From the IMG/VR virus record IMGVR_UViG_3300036894_000047, positions 1 to 23,599 of that record: 23,599 nucleotides of DNA; one strand, given 5' to 3'. The notes under the pieces are model-generated. The model was given only the letters and a program-made list of their open reading frames with translations, searched no databases and had not been told where the DNA came from. The stretch is from a virus. Of the stretch, positions 10,170 through 13,195 are shown one piece after another. Made by a program: the position numbers and the translations under genes. Position 1 is the stretch's first letter, and the number at the start of each line of letters is the position of its first letter.

Positions 10170-11210
10170 TTAGTCGCCTCTAAATGCACTGTTGCGTTTA
10201 GGATATACATCGTCGGAAGTAGGCTCTCTGCCTGTGATTTCAATTGGTTCATCTTGAATAAGTTCTTTCTTAGTTTCTGTAACCACATCGACCACTTCTT
10301 GTATTGGTTGAGATTTCAATATTCCCATTTTTCTTAGAGCTGCCGAACGTACCCTTTCAAATATTTCGACTGGTGTCTCGAAAATGGTAGGGGCATTGTG
10401 TTTATCCCTTAGAGTTTTCAGCACTGATTCTTTATATTCAGGCTCGCATTCATTGAGGATATACAATAATTCGTCGGCTTGAACTTGCGATATGATGTTG
10501 TCAGATTGTTTCATCTCGTCCTTTGTGTAGACACCTGATAGCTCCGCTGGGAATGCCTTTCTAAGGGCCAAGGATTCCGCGCATTTGCCTAACTGGTTCC
10601 TCTCCATGTTCACCCACATGCCCGTCTTTTTTTTCTGTCCTGTCGATTTGTCGGTGTATGTCTGGCAATATTCGTCAAAAAAGGCTTCGGCCTCGACGAT
10701 ATGCCATGTTCCATCTTGAGTTAGTTTCTTTACGTATGCTGTCGCGGATAATATTTTTCCTTCTTTATCATATTCAAAAGTAGTCTTAGGCCCAGGAGCA
10801 TAACGACCTGTTCTTTCAGCAATGAGGCGATAGCCATCTATTCCTGTTTGGATAGTCATTGTCTCGCGTTTAAGGCGGCTATCATAGCGTTTGACAGCGT
10901 AGATTTGACGCATAAATGGATCTAGCTGAGTCTTTTGGCACGCCATAAGAAATACGGCAAATTCGTCATTTGTCGCATCTTTGCAGATTGAATTTTTCAA
11001 GATTTCTATTTGATCTGCGTTGAAATGGCCCGAAGACATCTCGTGTCTTTGCGGCATCAATTGGACTTTGTTCATATTGCTACCTGTACTTTTGGGTTGA
11101 TTTAAACCGCTGGTAACAATATTGTTATTGTCACAGCGTTGCGGATTTTCATTATTTTGTCTTGGCGGACGGTTAATGTGTGTTTGTGGCGCTGATCTTT
11201 CTTTTAGCAT
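10170..11210 (-). CDS. bet: phage recombination protein Bet (RecT/Red-beta family)
   Basis: A 346-residue protein that anneals complementary single DNA strands during phage recombination and replication. The conserved core starts near residue 64 (ADQIEILKNSICKDATNDEF) and includes LDPFMRQIYAVKR (96-108), the diagnostic QTGIDGYRLIAERTGRYAPG (121-140), and NQLGKCAESLALRKAFP (205-221). The first 45 residues are polar and poorly conserved, and an internal ATG at codon 46 (MNKVQLMPQ) is where many relatives begin. The ATG at 11210 has the better AAGGA site, so it is kept. The C-terminal 100 residues are less conserved and may bind partners. No exonuclease partner lies next to it; the short genes beside it are unrelated to lambda Exo. 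Confidence 0.9.
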   Translation of the reverse strand: MLKERSAPQTHINRPPRQNNENPQRCDNNNIVTSGLNQPKSTGSNMNKVQLMPQRHEMSSGHFNADQIEILKNSICKDATNDEFAVFLMACQKTQLDPFMRQIYAVKRYDSRLKRETMTIQTGIDGYRLIAERTGRYAPGPKTTFEYDKEGKILSATAYVKKLTQDGTWHIVEAEAFFDEYCQTYTDKSTGQKKKTGMWVNMERNQLGKCAESLALRKAFPAELSGVYTKDEMKQSDNIISQVQADELLYILNECEPEYKESVLKTLRDKHNAPTIFETPVEIFERVRSAALRKMGILKSQPIQEVVDVVTETKKELIQDEPIEITGREPTSDDVYPKRNSAFRGD

Positions 11211-11252: not shown

Positions 11253-11279
11253 TAAACCTGCTTCTTAGGAAGCAGGCTT
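11253..11279 (-). terminator. hairpin between acidic gene and bet
   Basis: CCTGCTTC (11257-11264) pairs with GAAGCAGG (11269-11276) around a four-base loop that contains part of the stop codon of the acidic gene. Leftward it is followed by only TTT, so it is probably an attenuator or mRNA-stability hairpin that lowers expression of bet. Confidence 0.5.
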
Positions 11280-11435
11280 GTTAAGTAAGTATTCGAGTTT
11301 GTCTTCTAGACAATCGAAATCGTCTAATTCCTCATCATCCCAATCATCTTCAGGATCTATTGCGATTTGATTTTCTTTGTAATGATCATATTCCTCCTCT
11401 GAGATAGTCCCGTTAAGTACATCTGTAAATTTCAT
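11265..11435 (-). CDS. 56-residue acidic protein
   Basis: First gene of the Bet operon: MKFTDVLNGTISEEEYDHYK, then a strongly acidic tail (DPEDDWDDEELDDFDCLEDK). About one third of the residues are D or E. Such small acidic phage proteins sometimes mimic DNA or bind host nucleic-acid proteins, but nothing specific can be assigned. A near-perfect AAGGAAGGTGG ribosome binding site and the promoter at 11471-11499 support that it is a real gene. Confidence 0.6.
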   Translation of the reverse strand: MKFTDVLNGTISEEEYDHYKENQIAIDPEDDWDDEELDDFDCLEDKLEYLLNKPAS

Positions 11436-11470
11436 TTACCACCTTCCTTTACTTGGCTTTCTTGTGACAA

Positions 11471-11499
11471 AGTGTAACATAACGTAAAGATTTACGCAA
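11471..11499 (-). promoter_or_regulatory. promoter of Bet operon with palindromic operator
   Basis: On the minus strand: TTGCGT (11494-11499), 17 bases, TACACT (11471-11476). The palindrome CGTAAA-GA-TTTACG (11483-11496) lies in the spacer and touches the -35. The 10-bp direct repeat AAAGTGTAAC flanks it at 11469-11478 and 11506-11515. This is the layout of a repressor operator, though the protein that binds is unknown. Confidence 0.5.
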
Positions 11500-11559
11500 G
11501 AGGTAAAAGTGTAACTTTGATGATTAAAATAACTCATATGTGACAAGTTTTAAATACAC

Positions 11560-11629
11560 AAAAAAAGCGAGACAGCTAAAGGGCTATCTCGCTCCTGACG
11601 AATCACCTAATGTATGGAGCACATGAGGT
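11560..11629 (-). ncRNA. small-RNA-like unit, left copy
   Basis: Leftward unit of about 70 nt. It starts near 11629, below a TTGCAA-N16-TATATT promoter, and carries TACATTAGGT in the middle. It ends in a GCGAGA/TCTCGC hairpin (11567-11592, with an inner AGC/GCT pairing) followed by U7 (11560-11566). It has no reading frame of note. The unit at 11671-11735 repeats the same plan about 110 bases away. Expression and target are unknown. Confidence 0.5.
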
Positions 11630-11635
11630 AATCGC

Positions 11636-11663
11636 AATATATAATTAAATTTATTATTTGCAA
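11636..11663 (-). promoter_or_regulatory. promoter of left small-RNA-like unit
   Basis: TTGCAA (11658-11663), 16 bases, TATATT (11636-11641), read on the minus strand. The predicted start is about seven bases below the -10. Confidence 0.45.
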
Positions 11664-11670
11664 ACATAAT

Positions 11671-11735
11671 AAAAAACGCGAGAACCTGGGGGAACTCGCG
11701 CTAACAAAGAGAGAAGGTAATGTAAAAACCTTTTC
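11671..11735 (-). ncRNA. small-RNA-like unit, right copy
   Basis: Leftward unit of about 65 nt, from a start near 11735 to U6 at 11671-11676. It contains TACATTACCT and ends in the CGCGAG/CTCGCG hairpin (11677-11682 with 11695-11700). The hairpins, the central TACATTA element and the CCTC segment near the 5' end are all offset by 110-111 bases from the left copy, so the two units probably arose by duplication. Confidence 0.5.
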
Positions 11736-11741
11736 GAGGTA

Positions 11742-11770
11742 AATCTACCACTGCATTGTGTAACGGTCAA
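11742..11770 (-). promoter_or_regulatory. promoter of right small-RNA-like unit
   Basis: TTGACC (11765-11770), 17 bases, TAGATT (11742-11747), read on the minus strand. No protein start lies downstream before the terminator hairpin. Confidence 0.5.
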
Positions 11771-11838
11771 TAGAAATGTCTGGATGTAAATTGTAGGAGG
11801 GGAGTATAACTCATAGCATTAACGCTTAAAAGCGACGA

Positions 11839-11856
11839 GGGGGCTTGCCGGCCCCC
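11839..11856 (+). other. GC-rich hairpin upstream of replication operon
   Basis: GGGGGC (11839-11844) pairs with GCCCCC (11851-11856), a six-pair stem in an AT-rich region. No U-run follows on either strand, so it is not a normal terminator. It may be a leader structure or protein-binding site, or part of an origin. Confidence 0.4.
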
Positions 11857-11865
11857 GTATCCAAT

Positions 11866-11930
11866 ATCTGATGTGTTAGAGCCTCAGATTATATATTTCG
11901 TCACTTTTAAGTCAACACAAATGGCTCTAA
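11866..11930 (+). promoter_or_regulatory. structured leader before 11943 gene
   Basis: ATCTGA (11866-11871) can pair with TCAGAT (11884-11889). TTAGAGCC in its loop (11876-11883) can instead pair with GGCTCTAA (11923-11930), and TGTGTT (11872-11877) with AACACA (11914-11919). These pairings compete or cross. The last one lies just before the ribosome binding site AAAGGA, so the leader could control translation. A TATATT at 11892-11897 is a possible -10 without a good -35. Confidence 0.35.
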
Positions 11931-11942
11931 AAAGGATAAAAT

Positions 11943-12197
11943 ATGTCTCTACTCATAAAGAAAATAGCCAACATAAAATTAGCTCAAGTCTCTGAAGATA
12001 GATTTATTTCATGGGAAGCCAAAGGAATTTTTTTATTTTTAGAAACTCACTTAAAGCCTATAACATATGATTTAGACAATGTGGAATCTGAAATAAAAAT
12101 TCATTCAAAATCTAACATTTCTATTGAAGAAATACATAATTTTATCAAGGAGTTGAGAGAATTGGGATATGTTCGAATAGAAATAGGAAGCAAATAA
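11943..12197 (+). CDS. small winged-helix-like protein
   Basis: An 84-residue protein whose pattern (SWEAKGIFLFLETHLKPITY, then IHNFIKELRELGYVRIE) resembles the winged-helix domains at the start of phage replication initiators: a helix with AKGIFLFL, a helix-turn-helix, then ELGYV and a beta wing. It lacks a second domain. It opens the rightward replication operon, with AAAGGA just upstream, and precedes a larger protein with a related N-terminal domain. It may regulate or assist replication initiation. Confidence 0.55.
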   Translation: MSLLIKKIANIKLAQVSEDRFISWEAKGIFLFLETHLKPITYDLDNVESEIKIHSKSNISIEEIHNFIKELRELGYVRIEIGSK

Positions 12198-12262: not shown

Positions 12263-13195
12263 ATGGAAAGAAACTTAAGTCAAGAAGAGATCAAAGATGA
12301 TGTATCTATTCAACTTTGTCCCGATGAAAAGGAATTACCTTTCGCTATGATTCCTCATGAATTGATAAGAGATGAAAAAATATCTCCTCAATGCAGATTA
12401 TTAATAATATATTTACTTTCTAATGTGTCCAATTGGACAATAAATCGCGCTCAATTATGCAAACATTTTAAAGGTTTCATGGGTCGAGATGCTGTTCTAA
12501 AAACTCTAAAGGAAGCTATAGAATCAGGATATATGTTTAGAGAAGACTATTACGAACCAAATTTGCAAATAAAAAGTAAGGGTAAGATAAAGAATTGCAA
12601 GAATTTAAGAAGATGCAGATATTTAATATCTAGAACTCCAAAATTCAAAAAATTTCTCCGACGTCCTGAAAACAAGGATGCCGAACTCACGGATACCGAA
12701 AACAAGGGCGCTTATAAAGAACATAGTCAAGAAGATCATTGTAAAGAAAAACAACAACACGAAAAACTAAAAAAAACGAAAACGGCTACGCCTGTTGTTG
12801 TTTTTTCTTGCTTAGATAAACTTGAATTAACTCCAAAAGAAAAAGAAAACCTCTCAAAGAAATACCCTGAAGAGCAGCTTGAACTTGCCATTAGGAGGGT
12901 ATTGTCTTGGAAGACTCGCGGTAAAGATATAATCGCAATTAGGCATGTACTCAAGAATGCGGATAAATGGGAAGACGTGATACCAAAAGAAGAGATCATA
13001 GAACAAAATAAGAAGTTTTTAGAAAAAAACAGAGCAAATCAAGGAGCTAAATTAGGAAAATATAAATGCTGGGTTGGAAGTGATTATATCGAGTTTGACC
13101 CGGGTGTAGCAAATCAAATAATTAGATTTGAAGTAGATGATAAAAAATTTATTGCAAGCCTATGTGAATTCATTGAAACTTACAAAAAACGTTGA
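12263..13195 (+). CDS. probable phage replication initiator (winged helix)
   Basis: A 310-residue protein. Residues about 27-95 (FAMIPHELIRDEKISPQCRL, then LLSNVSNWTINRAQLCKHF, RDAVLKTLKEAIESGYMF) follow the winged-helix pattern of phage replication proteins that bind the origin and load helicase. A lysine-rich linker (about 105-190) is followed by a helical region (about 190-245: LELTPKEKENLSKKYPEEQL). The last 60 residues (FLEKNRANQGAKLGKYKCWV to the end) form a small module that recurs as two independent proteins in the next two genes. No helicase is visible, so the host's may be used. The basic linker suggests DNA contact. The function is inferred from fold pattern and place. Confidence 0.6.
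   Translation: MERNLSQEEIKDDVSIQLCPDEKELPFAMIPHELIRDEKISPQCRLLIIYLLSNVSNWTINRAQLCKHFKGFMGRDAVLKTLKEAIESGYMFREDYYEPNLQIKSKGKIKNCKNLRRCRYLISRTPKFKKFLRRPENKDAELTDTENKGAYKEHSQEDHCKEKQQHEKLKKTKTATPVVVFSCLDKLELTPKEKENLSKKYPEEQLELAIRRVLSWKTRGKDIIAIRHVLKNADKWEDVIPKEEIIEQNKKFLEKNRANQGAKLGKYKCWVGSDYIEFDPGVANQIIRFEVDDKKFIASLCEFIETYKKR

Follow-up and report, generated by a model that had tools for sequence, protein, structure and literature searches.

Short leftward RNAs, possibly antisense to the replication leader, predicted in the control region of an uncultured phage and its relatives

The region between the leftward RecT operon and the rightward replication operon of an uncultured phage is best explained, if tentatively, as a set of short leftward RNAs directed against the replication operon's leader, in which the transcript of a promoter named P3 would act as a counter-transcribed RNA attenuator and two shorter units (units 1 and 2) would add further leftward RNAs. 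The base for this reading in the sequence is three leftward promoter-like sites (P3, P2 and P1) and two leftward intrinsic terminators (T2 and T1). In particular, a counter-transcribed RNA is recognized by a promoter and a terminator on the opposite strand within the leader, and P3 and T2 are predicted to form such a pair both in the window (the whole stretch of DNA analysed, 23,599 nt) and in a relative, G001. Moreover, leftward terminators lie at the same spot in other relatives, which suggests that an antisense RNA may hold back replication, as in plasmids.

At 23.6 kb, the window (virus record IMGVR_UViG_3300036894_000047) encodes a P22-like portal and a terminase large subunit, and it belongs to a family of ~38-kb phages that has many relatives in IMG/VR, the longer contigs being mostly ~35-40 kb. 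These relatives were retrieved through portal and TerL searches of IMG/VR; searches of the same database with the RecT and replication proteins returned nothing beyond the same phage (to which contig L002 also belongs), and DNA similarity to named phages consisted of short chance matches only. G001 (IMGVR_UViG_3300037083_000012) is the sole other contig found to have the control region in common in sequence; a pattern scan for P3 matched only the same phage and G001, and a scan for the terminator stem matched two contigs. Among GTDB genomes, a close terminase (86%) was found on a single contig, CAIWKX010000093.1 (L188), placed in a Bacteroidetes MAG possibly through a binning error. At 1364-2242 on the minus strand, the window also holds a phage gene for an SPFH/Band 7 membrane protein (phrog_200). 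The idea that these are phage-plasmids gained no support: a ParA-type ATPase was found in none of 26 records and a tyrosine integrase in one of the 26.

The control region and its flanking genes have the following features (window coordinates; the minus strand is read leftward).

10170-11210, minus: RecT-family single-strand annealing protein, a gene of the leftward operon
11265-11435, minus: first gene of the leftward operon (56 aa), with a C-terminus common to G001
11471-11499, minus: P0, TTGCGT-N17-TACACT, its -10 preceded by TG, probably the leftward operon's promoter; beyond both terminators
11560-11629, minus: predicted unit 1 RNA, start ~11629, 5' hairpin UACCU...AGGUG, then T1
11596-11563, minus: stem-loop of terminator T1, with a T tract to 11560; from the terminator scan and folding
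11636-11663, minus: P1, promoter-like site TTGCAA-N16-TATATT, from the promoter scan
11671-11735, minus: predicted unit 2 RNA, start ~11735, 5' hairpin AAGG...CCUU, then T2
11702-11675, minus: stem-loop of terminator T2, with a T tract at 11676-11671; would end the P3 RNA too
11742-11770, minus: P2, promoter-like site TTGACC-N17-TAGATT; TTGACC-N17-TATCGT at the same place in G001
11805-11810, plus: TATAAC, weak candidate -10 of a rightward promoter, just left of D3'; TATAAA in G001
11825-11838, plus: D3', left arm of an inverted repeat, CTTAAAAGCGACGA, pre-emptor-like, in the rightward leader; its complement lies within the predicted P3 antisense RNA
11839-11856, minus: stem-loop GGGGGC-CGGCAA-GCCCCC in the P3 transcript, with no T tract behind it; GGAGCC-TGGGGA-GGCTCC at the same place in G001
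11888-11915, minus: P3, promoter-like site TTGACT-N16-TATAAT (11/12), the strongest of the region, predicted start ~11881; kept in G001
11898-11911, plus: D2', right arm of the inverted repeat, TCGTCACTTTTAAG, overlapping the P3 -35 region on the opposite strand
11943-12197, plus: ORF84 (phrog_11718), related to the replication protein's N-terminal part
12263-13195, plus: replication initiation protein, whose relatives match lambda O-like and DnaD-like PHROG families

The proposed mechanism centres on P3, which is missing from the initial annotation because that annotation ends too early. Transcription from P3 would yield a counter-transcribed RNA of ~205 nt that contains the D3' complement and ends at T2. 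By pairing with D3' of the rightward mRNA, this RNA would free D2', which would then shut the ribosome-binding site; as template number goes up, synthesis of the replication protein would go down. The P3 RNA would thus control the expression of ORF84 and the replication gene, while P2 and P1 would add shorter leftward RNAs that may tune the same circuit.

Fold predictions for the window agree with such a switch. D2' has two predicted pairing options, D3' or the ribosome-binding region of ORF84. In the predicted fold of the full leader, CTTAAAAGCGACGA and TCGTCACTTTTAAG are paired and the ORF84 ribosome site is mostly open; without CTTAAAAGCGACGA, TCGTCACTTTTAAG is predicted to shut both the ribosome site and the start codon, and the calculated openness of the ribosome site falls from 0.53 to 0.22. 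The leftward region of the window is not predicted to pair strongly with the ribosome site of ORF84 itself. The leader directly precedes ORF84 in the window rather than the replication protein, which counts against an attenuator. ORF84 matches phrog_11718, as does the replication protein in its N-terminal part, so that the full gene is preceded by a separate N-terminal-domain copy. Replication proteins of the family are mosaic: those of the window and G001 (L173, 3421-4266) have only the C-terminal part in common (40% identity, window residues 169-310), and the N-terminal domains vary across the family.

The control-region feature at 11560-11770 is real and, judged from its signals, was correctly observed in the initial annotation as leftward promoter-terminator units. 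The AATGTA motifs (11609 and 11719), the hairpins (11567 and 11677) and both minus-strand promoter sequences, TTGCAA-N16-TATATT (11663-11636) and TTGACC-N17-TAGATT (11770-11742), are where they had been placed, and the proposed U6-U7 ends correspond to tracts of T7 (unit 1) and T6 (unit 2) that follow the stem-loops on the leftward strand only. The fold of the predicted unit 1 RNA has a free energy of -28.6 kcal/mol (z -5.5) and that of unit 2 -19.9 kcal/mol (z -4.5), and none of 200 dinucleotide shuffles was as good in either case; for the P3 leader, z is only -1.4. The automatic terminator scan lists T1, and T2, whose stem has an internal loop, is absent from its list. Together, sequence, folding and conservation in a relative bear out the description of small-RNA-like leftward units between the RecT/Bet-like and replication operons.

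The further claim that the two units are duplicates is no more than weakly borne out. The offset of 110-111 applies to the AATGTA motifs and the hairpins, whereas the promoters are ~106 apart and so out of register. A local alignment of unit 1 with unit 2 is equalled by 2-4 of 1000 shuffles, a score owed in part to the terminator that both contain; with a likeness this loose and the ~106 promoter offset, exact duplication is a possibility only. TACATTA by itself does not exceed its chance frequency in the window. TTACCTC occurs on the minus strand at 11500-11506, 11625-11631 and 11736-11742, three times within 243 bases, out of five copies in the window; the copies are found close to the predicted P1 and P2 starts and directly upstream of the P0 -35, and TTACCTC is possibly a shared operator.

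P1 and P2 score 9/12 each, and a 2.3-kb scan gave 11 promoter-like sites against 6.9 expected, so that neither site has significance as a promoter by itself. It is accordingly conceivable, if very improbable, that T1 and T2 are plain terminators that shield the RecT operon from leftward transcription, that P1 and P2 are chance matches and that no functional RNA is made; the terminators are strong, and P1 and P2 are near the regional expectation. Such terminators would nevertheless need leftward transcription upstream, for which P3 is strong and conserved, and P2 together with the P2-T2 segment is conserved in G001 beyond the stem.

The initial annotation proposed that the units are trans-acting or decoy RNAs, a reading that we regard as quite unlikely. 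Their compact promoter-hairpin-terminator form, an exposed ACAUU/CCUU segment resembling an anti-start-site seed, and retention of the unit 2 segment in G001 all speak for it. However, the 41 phage start regions contained no convincing pairing target: no complementarity to unit 2 stood out, and the best target of unit 1 reached a z of -3.0, within the expectation for multiple tests. Units 1 and 2 are more likely part of an antisense array controlling replication, and the family comparison described below likewise indicates antisense control encoded in cis and directed at the neighbouring replication gene rather than action in trans.

Whether units 1 and 2 are themselves antisense depends on the rightward promoter. 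With a promoter at 11805-11810, both units would lie outside the mRNA and would not be antisense; with a promoter further left, both would be antisense to it. The TATAAC at 11805-11810 has no good -35 and is not among the promoter-scan sites.

Conservation in G001 is greatest around P3, which is the best conserved stretch of the region in the alignment with the window. G001 also has P3, the D2/D3 inverted repeat (its counterpart of D3' lies at L173, 3294-3306), unit 2 and T2. In particular, unit 2 retains TTGACC at the same place, the ACATT...CTTTG-TTAGC segment and the terminator stem, and none of 1000 shuffles reaches the score of this match. Between the window and G001, T2 has compensatory changes in 2 of its 7 pairs and the inverted repeat in 2 of its 14. 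Conservation of the stems, named in the initial annotation as a check, was thus found for unit 2, with two compensatory changes in G001, and not clearly for unit 1. Further to the left, G001 has a second leftward unit that is like unit 2 of the window (0/1000 shuffles) and weakly like its own neighbour (24/1000 shuffles); unit 1 of the window has no likeness to it (811/1000 shuffles as good) and no traceable counterpart outside this phage. Another relative, G010 (L181, 2150-2345), has its own tandem leftward promoter units with an offset of 95, near-identical promoters (TTGACT/TTGTCT...TAAGAT) and, in the first unit, a T9 terminator. The presence of multiple units in G001 and G010 makes more than one leftward unit a recurring plan.

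Window 11804-11918 is homologous to the 5' part of the replication ORF of G001, with some in-frame similarity persisting. Its interpretation as a relic of a gene was rejected; the likely start codon and ribosome site of G001 lie 126 bases further in, and both stretches, in the window and in G001, are therefore better taken as leader.

The stem-loop of the P3 transcript bears on another reading, in which the locus is an attenuated leader of the leftward RecT operon and transcripts from P3, P2 and P1 stop at T2 and T1 unless antitermination occurs, in the manner of lambda nut/N or HK022 put. Tandem terminators between leftward promoters and the leftward operon are arranged as in lambda pL leaders, and a stem-loop without a T tract that is kept in G001 could be put-like. 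Three observations make this reading doubtful, and we give it a low probability: P0, a plausible promoter for the operon itself, lies beyond T1; readthrough in most relatives would run antisense through a rightward small gene that separates the terminator from the leftward operon; and no N-like gene was identified. Around P0, window 11463-11553 holds direct repeats of AAAGTGTAAC (spacing 37, twice near P0) and TGTGACAA (spacing 76), with a palindrome, CGTAAATCTTTACG, inside the P0 spacer; these repeats and the palindrome look like the operator region of the leftward operon.

Across the family, 26 replication-gene leaders, including those of the window and G001, were compared with control genes from the same contigs that encode at least 150 aa, with start codons of the leaders set by simple rules and visual inspection. 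Of 25 leaders, 16 have a leftward intrinsic terminator upstream of the lambda O-like gene, compared to 11 of 160 controls (p = 3e-10); rightward terminators were fewer in that test (5 and 4). The window itself falls marginally under the cut-off of this automatic test, since the tested stretch covers only part of the array. The D2:D3 inverted repeat is significant in 13/26 leaders and 6/160 controls (p = 5e-9), with the D2 arm ~35-75 bases upstream of the start codon and the D3 arm further left. Leftward promoter scores also exceed those of controls (p = 3e-4), with -10 elements mostly 55-79 bases before the start codon; from these positions, D2 would overlap the promoter of the leftward RNA, and the predicted RNA would include D3. 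Two signals are weaker: D2 complements the ribosome-site region (D1) in 8/26 leaders against 17/160 controls (p = 0.01), and D3 resembles D1 in 6/26 against 9/160 (p = 0.009). In the window alone, neither the direct D1/D3 likeness nor the D2/D1 likeness is significant (p = 0.14 and 0.30, respectively). The p values for leaders are somewhat optimistic because some of the 26 are kin, and the three-segment model was built on part of the same leaders, which favours the contrast; the control set may include a few replication genes, which works against it.

The same switch was examined by folding leaders from successive 5' ends and predicting the openness of the ribosome site. Removal of D3' lowers the predicted openness by a family median of 0.14, compared to 0.03 in controls (p = 1e-7). 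The effect is weak in G001, whose leader is predicted to adopt the closed form by default, and in several relatives; leaders L162, L163, L181 and L183 give little sign of a switch. In other leaders the predicted leftward RNA could itself cover the ribosome-binding site through strong pairing (L161, z -4.7; L164, z -4.0; L180, z -3.0).

Control at the level of DNA is a serious rival to antisense control, because several relatives hold multiple copies of a repeated element. Under such control, which we consider unlikely, the repeats would be operators or initiator sites (iterons), the leftward promoters would regulate or activate an origin and the RNAs would be by-products. Leaders L065, L069, L167 and L168 have, in their leftward region, at least three copies of a short iteron-like element (for example CTAGTCCTT or CAACGTT) that run in both orientations; these fit protein-binding sites equally well, which counts against the attenuator. 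The overlap of the inverted repeat with the -35 of the leftward promoter and, in the window, the three one-strand TTACCTC copies and the two of AAAGTGTAAC near P0 point in the same direction. Against this, the predicted openness of ribosome sites shifts as an RNA switch would have it, a pure operator would not need the recurring leftward T-tailed terminator, and stems change in a compensatory manner between the window and G001, where few pairs vary.

More generally, it is a speculative and rather unlikely extension that many uncultured phages control a lambda O-like initiator by a plasmid-type attenuator whose architecture is kept and whose sequence is rewritten in each phage, making it a diverging RNA determinant of replication incompatibility (superinfection), with the antisense unit in tandem in some. 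Counter-transcribed RNA attenuators are textbook devices of plasmid copy-number control. In lambda, the OOP unit is located before gene O, a similar location in a phage, but its target is cII. If the proposal is true, an attenuator on the initiator operon itself would unite plasmid attenuators with an OOP-like position, dozens of natural variants would be at hand for studying the evolution of such switches, and related phages would be predicted to show RNA-based incompatibility. A phage RNA acting on the leader of an initiator gene was found neither in excerpts of a phage-RNA review (PMC12197685) nor in searches of open-access papers.

Among known phage RNAs, lambda OOP is a 77 nt RNA, transcribed leftward from pO to an intrinsic terminator and overlapping the 3' end of cII (PMC5869508, PMC12197685). 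In the window and its relatives an O-like replication gene is likewise preceded by a short leftward unit, with ORF84 lying between in the window, and G001 has the same layout of a Cro/C1-type HTH gene (HTH_3) on the left, then the leftward unit, then the O-like gene; no CII match is listed for the genes of G001. Unlike OOP, the window has three promoters rather than one and no rightward or cII-like gene beneath its units; the lack of a cII-like gene there and of any relevant match in the region in an Rfam scan of the window (E <= 1) is why the units are not filed as an OOP member. The P22 sar RNA (68-69 nt), which pairs with the antirepressor mRNA to block its translation initiation (PMC12197685), is similar in size and differs in its target and in its unrelated position. 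Cluster A mycobacteriophages have RNA-based prophage origins without a rep gene, beside parABS (PMC7157519); noncoding RNA, here predicted, is an element of replication control in both, whereas the present phages have an initiator gene and no ParA-type match in 26 records.

Plasmid systems are closer in target. The pMV158 RNAII is a 48 nt RNA with an intrinsic terminator, encoded in the intergenic region before the replication gene on the opposite strand, and it blocks translation (PMC4485353). The predicted RNAs resemble it as short opposite-strand transcripts before a replication gene that end at an intrinsic terminator; RNAII is complementary over its full length to the copG-repB mRNA, while an overlap of units 1 and 2 with an mRNA is only putative. 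In pT181 and pSK41, binding of the antisense RNAI to the leader lets a start-site stem form that a pre-emptor otherwise prevents, and RNAI of pSK41 acts on translation (PMC5703833). The present system differs from these in being a phage with an O-like initiator, in an antisense promoter that overlaps the inverted repeat, in further promoter-terminator units downstream in the window, and in an RNA that is predicted. Like them, it has a putative RNA against the leader of the replication gene, and by model calculations a middle segment may have two alternative partners, an upstream pre-emptor and the ribosome-binding region, with an effect that is clear in the window and weak in G001 and several relatives.
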